Shown piece by piece: positions 54,325 through 59,406 of a DNA stretch of 64,000 nt. Position numbers and translations under genes: made by a program. The notes beneath the pieces are model-generated. The model searched no databases, had not been told where the DNA came from, and saw nothing but the letters and a program-made list of their open reading frames with translations. How positions within the stretch are numbered: the stretch's first letter is position 1; every line of letters begins with the position of its first letter. Source of the stretch: Paludibacter sp. (GTDB lineage Bacteria; Bacteroidota; Bacteroidia; Bacteroidales; Paludibacteraceae); contig JADGPS010000001.1 of the NCBI GenBank assembly GCA_017882285.1, forward strand, positions 86,984 to 150,983. The letters are read 5' to 3'.

Positions 54325-55275
54325 ATGGGACTATTTAATTTCTTTAATAAAGAAAAAAAAGAAACACTTGATCAAGGTTTGTCGAAAACCAAAGAAAGTG
54401 TTTTTTCGAAGTTGACGCGTGCAGTTGCCGGAAAATCGAAAGTGGATGATGAAGTGTTGGATAATCTGGAAGAAGTATTAATTACTTCGGATGTAGGCGT
54501 TGAAACTACTTTGCGCATTATCGAACGGATTGAAAAACGTGTTGCCCGAGATAAATTTGTGAACACCGACGAGTTGAATGTAATTTTGAAAGACGAAATA
54601 GCCGCTTTATTGGCTGAAAACAACTCTGATTCACCGGCTGATTTTGATGCAGTTTTACCAAAAACTCCTTATGTGATTATGGTGGTTGGTGTGAATGGGG
54701 TTGGAAAAACTACGACAATTGGAAAGTTAGCTTACCAGTTTACAAAAGCAGGGAAAAAAGTATATCTTGGTGCGGCTGATACGTTTCGTGCGGCTGCTGT
54801 TGATCAGTTGGTTATCTGGGGTGAACGTGCCGGAGTGCCTGTAATTAAACAAAAAATGGGTTCTGATCCTGCTTCGGTGGCTTATGATACTATTGCTTCC
54901 GCTAAAGCCAATAATGCCGATGTAGTTATAATTGATACTGCTGGTCGTCTACACAATAAAATCAACTTAATGAACGAGTTGACCAAAATTAAAAATGTAA
55001 TGCAAAAAATAATTTCTGATGCACCTCACGAAGTATTATTAGTGTTAGACGGTTCTACCGGACAAAATGCATTTGAGCAAGCTAAACAATTTACAAAAGC
55101 TACTGATGTTACTGCATTGGCCATTACCAAACTTGATGGGACTGCCAAAGGTGGTGTGGTTATAGGCATTTCCGACCAATTTAAAATTCCGGTAAAATAT
55201 ATAGGACTGGGTGAAGGCATAGAACATTTACAGGTTTTTGACCGGAATGAATTTGTGGCATCGTTGTTTGAATAA
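54325..55275 (+). CDS. ftsY: signal recognition particle receptor FtsY
   Basis: 316 aa; MVVGVNGVGKTTTIGKLAYQF, DTFRAAAVDQL, DTAGRLHNKINLMNEL, TKLDGTAKGG. Confidence 0.97.
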   Translation: MGLFNFFNKEKKETLDQGLSKTKESVFSKLTRAVAGKSKVDDEVLDNLEEVLITSDVGVETTLRIIERIEKRVARDKFVNTDELNVILKDEIAALLAENNSDSPADFDAVLPKTPYVIMVVGVNGVGKTTTIGKLAYQFTKAGKKVYLGAADTFRAAAVDQLVIWGERAGVPVIKQKMGSDPASVAYDTIASAKANNADVVIIDTAGRLHNKINLMNELTKIKNVMQKIISDAPHEVLLVLDGSTGQNAFEQAKQFTKATDVTALAITKLDGTAKGGVVIGISDQFKIPVKYIGLGEGIEHLQVFDRNEFVASLFE

Positions 55276-55278
55276 AAA

Positions 55279-56571
55279 ATGAATAAAGGAACTGTTGATA
55301 TTGTAACGCTGGGTTGTTCAAAAAATCTGGTTGATTCTGAACAGTTGATGCGGCAGTTTGATGCGCTTGGTTATAAAGTAAGGCACGATGCTGAAAATCC
55401 GGATGGTGAGATTGTTATTATCAATACTTGTGGGTTTATAGGTGATGCCAAAGAGGAGAGTATCAATACTATTTTACAGTTTGCCGATTTGCGCAAACAA
55501 AATAAGATTGGCAAATTATTCGTAATGGGCTGTTTGTCCGAACGATATGTAAAAGAGCTTAGTTCTGAAATTCCGGAAGTGGATAAATTCTACGGTAAGT
55601 TCAACTATAATAATATTTTGACTGATTTAGGTCAGGAATATCGTGCTGATTTACGGTTGGAACGAACGTTGACAACACCAAATCATTACGCTTACATTAA
55701 AATTTCCGAAGGTTGTAACCGGACTTGTTCATATTGTGCCATTCCAATTATTACCGGAAAACACCGTTCACGTCCGATGGAAGACATTGAAAATGAAGTA
55801 AAAGGTTTGGTTTCAAAAGGTGTAAAGGAGTTTCAACTGATTGCCCAGGATTTGTCATATTATGGACAGGATCGGTATAAAAAACTGAAGCTGGCTGAAC
55901 TGACTGAAAGGCTATCTGATATTCCTGGTGTAGAATGGTTGCGATTGCATTATGCTTATCCGGCTCATTTCCCTTATGATGTTTTAAAGGTTATGCGAGA
56001 ACGCAACAATGTTTGTAAGTACCTGGATATTGCTCTGCAGCATGTAAGCGATAATATGCTGAAACAAATGCGCCGAAATATAACAAAAGATCAAACTTAC
56101 CAACTGATAGAAAGGATTCGTACAGAAGTGCCAGGTATTCATCTGCGTACGACTTTATTGCTTGGTCATCCGGGTGAAACGGAAGCTGACGTGGAAGAAT
56201 TGAAAGAATTTGTTCGAAAAGCTCGTTTTGAAAGGCTTGGAGCATTTGCTTTTTCCAATGAAGAAGGTACTTTTGCATATAAAACATATAAAGATGATGT
56301 TCCGGAGGAAATAAAACATAGACGTGTTGATGAAATAATGTCCATTCAGCAAAGTATTTCTGCTGAGATTAATCAGGCTAAAATTGGAAAAACTCTTAAG
56401 GTGATGATTGACAGGGTAGAGGATAAGTATTTTGTGGGAAGAACCGAATTTGATTCGCCCGAAGTTGATCCGGAAGTATTGATTCCAATTTCGAAAAAAG
56501 GTGTTGTAAAAGGTCAGTTTTATCAGACTAAAATTGTGGATGCGACCGATTTTGATCTTTATGGTATTTAA
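55279..56571 (+). CDS. rimO: ribosomal protein S12 methylthiotransferase RimO
   Basis: 430 aa; VTLGCSKNLVDSEQLM, EGCNRTCSYCAIPIITGKHRSRPMEDI, TRAM-like C-terminus. Confidence 0.96.
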   Translation: MNKGTVDIVTLGCSKNLVDSEQLMRQFDALGYKVRHDAENPDGEIVIINTCGFIGDAKEESINTILQFADLRKQNKIGKLFVMGCLSERYVKELSSEIPEVDKFYGKFNYNNILTDLGQEYRADLRLERTLTTPNHYAYIKISEGCNRTCSYCAIPIITGKHRSRPMEDIENEVKGLVSKGVKEFQLIAQDLSYYGQDRYKKLKLAELTERLSDIPGVEWLRLHYAYPAHFPYDVLKVMRERNNVCKYLDIALQHVSDNMLKQMRRNITKDQTYQLIERIRTEVPGIHLRTTLLLGHPGETEADVEELKEFVRKARFERLGAFAFSNEEGTFAYKTYKDDVPEEIKHRRVDEIMSIQQSISAEINQAKIGKTLKVMIDRVEDKYFVGRTEFDSPEVDPEVLIPISKKGVVKGQFYQTKIVDATDFDLYGI

Positions 56572-56611: not shown

Positions 56612-56902
56612 ATGAATCACAAAGAATTAATTTCGGCCATTTCCACAAAAATGAATGCTCCGAAAGCCGTAGTTGAAAAATTGCTGGAAACAACAATTTC
56701 AACTTGTACAGAGCTATTAGTGGACGAAAAAACAATTGGTTTTCAGAGTTTTGGAAATTTTGAAGTTAGAAAAAAGATGGAACGCTTATCGGTTCATCCT
56801 GCCACACAAATCAGAACCTTAATTCCGCCCAAATTAGTTGTGAACTTTAAACAAAGCAATATTCTGAAAGATAAACTTAAAGACCTGTCAAAGAATGAAT
56901 AA
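56612..56902 (+). CDS. HU/IHF-family DNA-binding protein
   Basis: 96 aa; MNHKELISAISTKMNAPKAVVEKLLETTISTCTELLVDEKTIGFQSFGNFEVRKKMER. Confidence 0.85.
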   Translation: MNHKELISAISTKMNAPKAVVEKLLETTISTCTELLVDEKTIGFQSFGNFEVRKKMERLSVHPATQIRTLIPPKLVVNFKQSNILKDKLKDLSKNE

Positions 56903-58160
56903 GGAAAAAATTTCATCTCAGGAAATAATTGATCTTATAGCATCAAAGGCATTGATCAGTAAACGCGCTGCAGAAGAGTTTATAAAAATGATGATTGCAA
57001 CTATTGAGGAAGCTTTGTTGGCGGGAGATATTGTGAAGATTAAAAACTTCGGAACATTTAAATTGCAATGGAATGAGCATCGTAAAAGTGTGAATGTTCA
57101 AACCGGAGAAGAAATCATTCTGGATGGTTATCATAAAGTCACGTTTATACCGGAAGCGTCTTTGAAAGACCTTGTAAACGAACCTTTTGCGCATTTAGAG
57201 CCTGTTCAGTTAGATGACGAAAACAATTTTGTTATTTCTGAAAAACATGAAATTGAGGTGTTGGATCCATTACGTATTTTCACAGAGCAAGCTTCTGAAA
57301 TCAAAGATATATTATCTGAAATACAGGCATTATCTGTAAGCTCAAAACCAGTTGCTTTGGAGGAACAAATTAAAGATCAAGAACAAACAGGTATTGAATT
57401 CGAATTAAGTAAAAAAAATGAACCTATAATTTTAGATAAAGAAAAAGTTATTGAACAAGCGATTGAACCTACTGAGATAATTTCAGAAGAACCAGTTTTG
57501 ATTGAACAAGAAGAAACTCAAATAATTTCAGAGTTAACAGATGATAAGATTGAAACATCGTCATTTTTAGAAAATGCAAAATCAAAAAACCGAAAAATTT
57601 GGTTTTCGGTGCTGATAATCTTACTGTTACTTGCCGGAACCGGATCAGGCCTTTATTTTTTATATCCACCTGCTAAGGACTTTACGGATTCAACTTATTT
57701 AAAAAGCAAAAAAACAATATTAAAAATGTCAGAAGGTGTGTCAATTACAGATATGCTAAACACAATTTCAAGTTGGGTTACACCTGAAACTAAACAAACT
57801 CCAATTCCCGAAACAATATTTATTCCAAAAGATACTTCAGCAATGGATTCAGTAACAGAGAAACCACAAATTGATAGTCTGCAGTACTTGTTTGATAATC
57901 CGAGAATTTACAGAGAGTATCTTGGTTCTGAGCGAATTAACCCGGGAAGTAGGTTAACTATAATTTCAAAACGCTATTATGGCAATAAAATCTTTTGGGT
58001 ATATATTTACGAAGCAAATAAAGACCATATTCCAAACCCGGATAATATTCCGGTTGGTACATTAATCAGAATCCCAAAAGTTGATTCTAAATTGATAGAT
58101 AGCACCAATCCACGCTGTATTCAAAAGGCAAAAGAATTGCATGATATTTATGTTGAATAA
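56895..58160 (+). CDS. HU-family DNA-binding domain fused through a TM helix to a C-terminal LysM-like domain
   Basis: 421 aa; HU domain (aa 1 to about 95: VKIKNFGTFKLQWNEHRKSVNVQTGEEIILDGYHKVTFIPEASLKDLV), acidic linker, TM (KIWFSVLIILLLLAGTGSGLYFLYPP), LysM-like SRLTIISKRYYGNKIFWVYIYEANKDHIPNPDNIPVGTLIRIPKV; start overlaps the preceding HU gene by 8 nt. Confidence 0.88.
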   Translation: MNKEKISSQEIIDLIASKALISKRAAEEFIKMMIATIEEALLAGDIVKIKNFGTFKLQWNEHRKSVNVQTGEEIILDGYHKVTFIPEASLKDLVNEPFAHLEPVQLDDENNFVISEKHEIEVLDPLRIFTEQASEIKDILSEIQALSVSSKPVALEEQIKDQEQTGIEFELSKKNEPIILDKEKVIEQAIEPTEIISEEPVLIEQEETQIISELTDDKIETSSFLENAKSKNRKIWFSVLIILLLLAGTGSGLYFLYPPAKDFTDSTYLKSKKTILKMSEGVSITDMLNTISSWVTPETKQTPIPETIFIPKDTSAMDSVTEKPQIDSLQYLFDNPRIYREYLGSERINPGSRLTIISKRYYGNKIFWVYIYEANKDHIPNPDNIPVGTLIRIPKVDSKLIDSTNPRCIQKAKELHDIYVE

Positions 58161-58410: not shown

Positions 58411-59406
58411 ATGATTCAATCTGTTGATATTAGGGAACTTAATGAGAGAATTGAAAAACAAAGCTCTTTTGTTGATGCATTAACCATGGGAATGGACAAA
58501 GTTATTGTCGGACAAAAGCATCTCGTGGAGTCATTATTAATCGGTTTACTCTCCGATGGTCACATTTTATTGGAAGGTGTACCGGGTTTAGCAAAAACGT
58601 TGGCTATTAAAACGCTTTCGGATTTAATTAAAGGAAAATTCAGTAGAATTCAGTTCACGCCTGATTTACTTCCTGCCGATGTTATTGGAACCATGATTTA
58701 CAGTCAGAAAAATGAAGAGTTCAGCATTAAAAAGGGACCAATTTTTGCTAATTTGATTTTAGCTGATGAAATAAACCGCGCACCGGCTAAAGTTCAGAGT
58801 GCTTTGCTCGAAGCGATGCAAGAACGTCAGGTAACTATTGGTGAACATACTTACAAATTGGATGAACCATTTTTAGTTTTGGCTACTCAAAACCCAATTG
58901 AACAAGAAGGAACGTATCCGCTTCCGGAAGCTCAGGTTGACCGTTTCATGCTGAAAGTGATTATCAATTATCCTAAAAAAGAGGAAGAAAAATTGATTAT
59001 CCGTCAAAATTTGTTGAAAGAAAAACCAACAGTTCTTCCTGTTCTTTCTCCACAAGAAATTATTGAAGCTCGCGATGTGGTTCGTCAGGTTTATATCGAC
59101 GAAAAAATTGAACGTTATATTATTGATATCGTTTTTGCTACTCGTTATCCGCAAGATTACGGTTTGGATTCACTGAAAGAAATGATTTCATTCGGTGCAT
59201 CGCCCCGTGCTTCAATTAATCTCGCTTTGGCATCACGTGCCTATGCATTTATTAAACGTCGTGGTTATGTAATTCCGGAGGATATCCGCGCCGTTTGCTA
59301 CGATGTTTTACGTCACCGTATTGGTTTGAGCTACGAAGCTGAAGCTAATAACATGACTTCCGACGAGATGATTACTGAAATTTTGAATACGGTTGAAGTA
59401 CCTTAA
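58411..59406 (+). CDS. MoxR-family AAA+ ATPase
   Basis: 331 aa; GHILLEGVPGLAKTLAIKTLSDLI, FANLILADEINRAPAKVQSALLEAMQERQVTIGEHTY, ATQNPIEQEGTYPLPEAQVDRF. Confidence 0.97.
   Translation: MIQSVDIRELNERIEKQSSFVDALTMGMDKVIVGQKHLVESLLIGLLSDGHILLEGVPGLAKTLAIKTLSDLIKGKFSRIQFTPDLLPADVIGTMIYSQKNEEFSIKKGPIFANLILADEINRAPAKVQSALLEAMQERQVTIGEHTYKLDEPFLVLATQNPIEQEGTYPLPEAQVDRFMLKVIINYPKKEEEKLIIRQNLLKEKPTVLPVLSPQEIIEARDVVRQVYIDEKIERYIIDIVFATRYPQDYGLDSLKEMISFGASPRASINLALASRAYAFIKRRGYVIPEDIRAVCYDVLRHRIGLSYEAEANNMTSDEMITEILNTVEVP

Follow-up and report, generated by a model that had tools for sequence, protein, structure and literature searches.

The HU1/HU2-LysM locus

The window, a stretch of 64,000 nucleotides of Paludibacter sp. 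DNA, comes from an assembly of 3.18 Mb, and the named genomes nearest to it in the collection are MAGs of Paludibacter-type Bacteroidales. Within it are two adjacent forward-strand genes that both encode HU domains, with HU1 (56612..56902) encoding a stand-alone HU protein of 96 aa (PF00216, 8e-19) and HU2-LysM (56895..58160) encoding a protein of 421 aa in which the HU domain is followed by a linker, a transmembrane (TM) segment and a LysM-type domain. An ORF check finds both reading frames where the initial annotation had placed them, including the 8 nt that the two genes share. Upstream is a gene which, from family knowledge, we take to be of the ftsY type (54325-55275), it precedes one presumably of the rimO type (55279..56571, forward strand), a conserved upstream neighbour in Bacteroidales, whilst a frequent downstream neighbour, again named from family knowledge, is a presumed MoxR-type ATPase gene (58411..59406, forward strand). 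A consensus scan of the forward strand found no terminator 3' of the pair.

The HU2 domain (56916..57179, aa 8-95; PF00216 1e-18, AlphaFold pLDDT about 97) is followed straight away by the residues N-E-P-F-A-H-L-E (57177..57200), which contain a conserved N-x-P-F motif that is specific to HU2 and has its Asn in 99% of HU2s. The acidic linker (57201..57584) is modelled by AlphaFold with low confidence and is probably disordered. The region had been described as Glu/Ile-rich and a count of its composition agrees, with 25 Glu and 18 Ile in the about 122 aa between HU domain and TM segment and a net charge of -23, the median across homologues being 131 aa and -24. A helix is predicted inside the linker (57267-57335, aa 125-147, pLDDT up to about 89), it is apparently kept in close relatives with the consensus EQAxEIKxIL.

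The TM helix (57597..57662, about aa 235-256) has a K/R-rich N-terminal flank and contains the sole hydrophobic segment of the protein (aa 235-253, Kyte-Doolittle mean 2.14). Exactly one TM segment is found in 127 of 128 homologues and 113 of these 127 have an excess of K/R on its N-terminal flank, so that the single TM segment claimed at first is borne out and the N-inside topology is supported by the positive-inside bias. The LysM-type domain (57918..58079, aa 342-395) is recognised by profile and AlphaFold. The protein does not end at GTLIRIPKV, with which the initial annotation closed the LysM-like domain, as about 25 further residues are present, and the AlphaFold model has a C-terminal helix among them (58110..58154, aa 406-420).

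The LysM domain

The Pfam model of LysM (PF01476) scores 13.8 bits against the protein, under its curated cut-off of 20.9, and matches only 8 of 80 HU2-LysM homologues at E <= 0.01. The NCBIfam model PRK11198 matches the LysM region at 5e-7, which is also under the cut-off of that model. A LysM assignment by Pfam alone was therefore dropped and evidence was taken from profile-to-PDB comparison and from structure. A search with the single sequence reaches Kbp at 1e-4 and the family profile reaches the LysM of Kbp in the PDB at 4.6e-11. The AlphaFold model has the order beta-alpha-alpha-beta (E342-347, H354-362, H365-374, E390-394) at a pLDDT of about 97, and the model of a fused homologue superposes on Kbp (7pvc) with an rmsd of 1.3 over 51 columns of that model in Foldseek. 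The LysM-like C-terminal domain of the initial annotation is thus upheld by the Kbp profile match and the predicted fold, although not by the Pfam threshold.

Kbp is a cytoplasmic potassium-binding protein, and with this as the closest solved relative a LysM need not mean glycan binding. A family profile search also finds the same module at the end of OmpA-family proteins in close relatives, in one case after a beta-barrel and OmpA (L213:2079-3752 (-)) and in another, from the same genus as the window, after PD40 and OmpA (L214:466-3162 (+)). As these OmpA proteins are exported, a periplasmic and wall-related location of the LysM of HU2-LysM is supported by analogy.

Conservation of the gene pair

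In Bacteroidales 128 HU2-LysM loci were counted, from locus sets that partly overlap and include some near-duplicates, and HU1 is directly upstream in 125 of them. In 102 loci the two genes overlap, by 8 nt (56 loci), 4 nt (37) or 11 nt (9). Two of the three loci without an upstream HU1 are at contig ends, in the third (L045:979-2064) HU2-LysM directly follows rimO and the HU1 gene is apparently absent. On contigs that extend far enough, 88 of 116 loci have rimO immediately upstream and 63 of 118 have moxR at most 600 bp downstream. An architecture that recurs in over a hundred loci, HU2-TM-LysM with an HU gene upstream, is not a product of chance.

HU2-LysM is matched in 56 of the 61 genomes of the window's own family. 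For the order the figures are 77 of 393 genomes and 41 of 207 genera (E <= 1e-20), which is an upper estimate because a few of the matches cover only the LysM part. The architecture also occurs in Bacteroides, Dysgonomonas, Coprobacter, Barnesiella and others. Full-length matches in a class-wide sample were within the order Bacteroidales only, yet the system is not confined to that order, as a phylum-wide sample gave matches in 35 genomes of one family (f199) of another class, where the pair is present too. In all six loci of this family that were read (L229-L234) HU1 is just before or overlaps a gene with the order HU2, acidic linker, TM and LysM-like domain, the LysM-like tail of L234 being assigned by eye and not by search. 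The gene neighbourhood of the pair in f199 differs from that in Bacteroidales. Several of these loci have neighbours that include a HemW-like radical-SAM gene and a gamma-carbonic-anhydrase-like gene. The phylogenetic spread of the two-gene pair, which had been proposed as a check, thus extends to two classes of Bacteroidota.

In an IQ-TREE phylogeny of 90 HU positions the HU1s of both classes form one clade (ultrafast bootstrap 96) and the HU2s of both classes another (ultrafast bootstrap 100), with the two clades lying apart from ordinary HUs. Because HU1s and HU2s form separate clades that each span both classes, we infer that the pair has been passed on as a unit, either vertically or by transfer of both genes together, and was not assembled twice.

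A natural fusion of HU1 and HU2

In one genus of family f87 (L177-L202) HU1 and HU2-TM-LysM are a single ORF, all 26 genomes of the genus were matched and about 20 read as fusions. An AlphaFold model of one fusion (L186:898-2280 (-)), made from an alignment of 33 sequences, has both HU folds at a pLDDT of about 95-98 with about 10 residues between them and a pTM of 0.52. An alignment that pooled the fused proteins with HU1s and HU2s was set aside, as in it the HU2s fell on the fused HU1. In the manner of a Rosetta-stone protein the fusion backs the pairing of HU1 and HU2. The earlier suggestion that the two HU proteins are partners is therefore supported by their adjacency, by the clades that cross classes and by the fused-protein model.

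In Foldseek the fusion model best matches chains from structures of doublet microtubules (8snb_1K, 9e2g_2N, 9e78). These chains may be tandem HU proteins of the CCDC81 type; homologues of CCDC81 have been identified in such structures (PMC10105768, PMC11961760).

Divergence of the two HU domains

That HU1 and HU2 are HU proteins is certain from their sequences, the domain proposed for both scoring 68.1 bits for HU1 and 67.8 bits for HU2 against a PF00216 cut-off of 22.4, and 80 of 80 HU2 homologues being matched. HU1 was assigned to the HU fold by sequence profile only and HU2 by AlphaFold and Foldseek too, with the HU2 model reaching a TMt of about 0.86 at best to HU chains that are full-length or bound to DNA, and of about 0.85 to DNA-bound Anabaena HU.

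It is in the residues expected to touch DNA that the two domains differ. Positions 63 and 80, numbered by alignment to the HU of B. stearothermophilus, are established DNA contacts in HU/IHF. Position 63, the DNA-intercalating position, is Pro in HU1 of the window (codon 63, 56798..56800, forward strand) and in 98% of Bacteroidales HU1s. In HU2 of the window a Val is found where the intercalating Pro would be (codon 68, 57096..57098, forward strand) and 91% of Bacteroidales HU2s have Val or Ile at this position. Position 80 is K or R in 94% of HU1s and mostly Thr, Val or Ile in HU2s. Bacteroidales HU1 retains K/R at several DNA-contact positions together with a basic arm, whereas most of the saddle lysines are gone from HU2 in the lineage of the window. 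The median net charge is +9 for ordinary HUs (n=28), +5 for HU1 (n=111) and -1 for HU2 (n=114). The beta-arm is shortened in a few unfused HU2s and absent in some lineages. In the fusion genus the HU2 beta-arm is missing and both HU domains are acidic, each with a median net charge of -3. In f199 the proline is kept in all six sampled HU1s and HU2s, and as both partners keep it there its loss from the HU2 of Bacteroidales looks secondary.

From these residues, charges and arm losses, HU1 in the lineage of the window is likely to bind DNA, whereas for HU2 this is uncertain and for the fusion genus doubtful; with acidic HU domains in that genus and an arm that is gone or short, binding may in some cases have weakened or disappeared. 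Since HU2 is without the intercalating proline and most of the saddle lysines, HU1 is the better candidate for DNA binding, and if DNA is bound it is probably HU1 that does most of the binding, with HU2 as the membrane partner.

Proposed function

The products of the two genes may form one two-subunit inner-membrane HU module, which would link nucleoid DNA to the wall as a passive tether; whether this is so we regard as an even question. HU1 would pair with the HU domain of HU2 in the cytoplasm, as the gene overlap, co-inheritance and natural fusion suggest, and provide most of the grip on DNA through its intercalating proline and basic arm. HU2 would carry the module on a long, flexible acidic linker to the single TM helix, beyond which a periplasmic spacer could offer the LysM-type domain to peptidoglycan. 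The nucleoid DNA would be kept close to the envelope, with a putative role in the organisation or segregation of the chromosome. The initial proposal was also of a tether, and its domains, single TM segment, N-inside topology and HU1:HU2 partnership have been retained. Its single polypeptide that connects both ends gives way to a two-subunit module, because neither the intercalating proline nor most of the saddle lysines remain in the HU2 of this lineage.

Those same losses, together with the deletion of the arm in several lineages, are also what would be expected if the HU1:HU2 dimer or pseudodimer were a platform for docking proteins and the membrane protein positioned another cytoplasmic protein at the wall. 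A role as a protein-interaction scaffold has been proposed for CCDC81-type HU domains, and both the acidic HU domains of the fusion genus and the doublet-microtubule chains that head the Foldseek matches of the fused model, from structures with known CCDC81 homologues, fit such a role. This is the most credible alternative, although a good deal less probable than a tether, as Pro63 and K/R at several DNA contacts are retained by Bacteroidales HU1 and all of the sampled HU1s and HU2s of the other class have the proline. If HU2 no longer binds DNA, an HU would have been converted into a protein-docking module.

A protein that spans the membrane once, with a domain of a DNA-binding type on the inner side and one of a ligand-binding type on the outer, could also be a membrane-tethered regulator. 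Its LysM would sense load or fragments of the wall and the HU pair would alter transcription of neighbouring or other genes. The pair is often found beside moxR/bat genes (the 63 of 118 loci above). HU, however, has no strong sequence preference in its DNA binding, and with neighbours that differ in the other class and a linker that is long and probably disordered such a regulator is improbable. Slightly more improbable still is that HU1 and HU2 act separately, with HU1 a soluble nucleoid protein of the ordinary kind, linked to HU2-LysM by no more than co-transcription. HU1 does retain most HU features and is apparently absent at one locus (L045), but the pairing has been maintained across classes and contexts, the two reading frames overlap in translation and a natural fusion exists. 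The reverse topology, with HU outside, for instance on extracellular DNA, and an ion-responsive LysM in the cytoplasm as its closest solved relative Kbp might suggest, is very improbable given the positive-inside bias in 113 of 127 homologues, an HU1 with no evident signal peptide and the presence of the same LysM module on exported OmpA proteins.

To our knowledge, how the Bacteroidota chromosome is held and segregated relative to the envelope has been little studied. A conserved operon that brings two HUs together with an anchor in the membrane and a domain of a wall-binding type is a compact and testable candidate for a link between chromosome and wall. Among the cultured genera that carry it are Bacteroides, Dysgonomonas and Coprobacter, and the proposed split between HU1 and HU2 and the natural fusion offer clear handles for experiments.

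Comparison with known systems

No paper on an HU-LysM protein was found in the open-licence literature searched. Both HU domains share fold and sequence with the HU/IHF nucleoid proteins (PF00216), whereas HU2 is joined to a linker, TM and LysM, has a net acidic character and no longer has the proline that intercalates. E. coli Kbp (YgaU, BON-LysM) is the closest solved relative of the LysM, but in HU2-LysM a BON domain was not detected and the protein is membrane-anchored with an HU. The OmpA-family proteins (L213, L214) end in the same LysM variant by the same family profile, although they are exported and without HU.

HubP/FimV, polar landmark proteins of Gammaproteobacteria, have a periplasmic LysM, one TM segment and a long acidic cytoplasmic region, with HubP positioning oriC and the LysM of FimV needed for sacculus binding (PMC12918733). 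They show that a LysM-TM-acidic-cytoplasmic plan can work as a peptidoglycan anchor. HU2-LysM is like them in these three parts, but its domain order is the opposite and it has an HU where they have a C-terminal FimV TPR; a domain profile search gave no TPR/FimV match and no sequence relationship was found.

The plan of HU, membrane and wall domain is not unique to the pair, as an HU-CCDC81-TM-SPOR protein is encoded in the same genome (P0004, 309 aa; L036:1303-2229 on contig C140), with HU-CCDC81 domains 1 and 2 and SPOR (PF18174/PF18175/PF05036) all above cut-off and one hydrophobic segment. The gene of P0004 adjoins an rpsP-like gene. Proteins of this kind in Bacteroidota were reportedly described by Burroughs et al. 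2017, with a role in chromosome partition said to have been proposed. Of 119 genomes of the order 103 contain PF18175. The two systems are not mutually exclusive, since about 16 of 20 genomes, tallied by hand, have both (Fisher p 0.47). HU2-LysM scores 16.2 against the PF18175 cut-off of 35 and has no SPOR in Pfam, and by the tests made the pair lies outside both the HU-CCDC81-SPOR and the HubP/FimV families. A profile comparison for a possible descent of the CCDC81-type tandem HUs from the HUs of the pair gave weak scores, from three CCDC81 proteins only.

Both systems have cytoplasmic HU-type domains, one TM segment and a C-terminal domain of a peptidoglycan-binding type, but HU-CCDC81-TM-SPOR has two divergent HUs in one chain with SPOR, whereas the pair has two near-canonical HUs in two genes with LysM. 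It is tentatively suggested, with a little less confidence than in the tether itself, that a heterodimeric unit inherited in two classes links nucleoid to wall, with HU1 contributing the DNA contact and HU2 those to membrane and wall. Cells that also have HU-CCDC81-SPOR would then possess a second HU-membrane-wall tether of separate construction.
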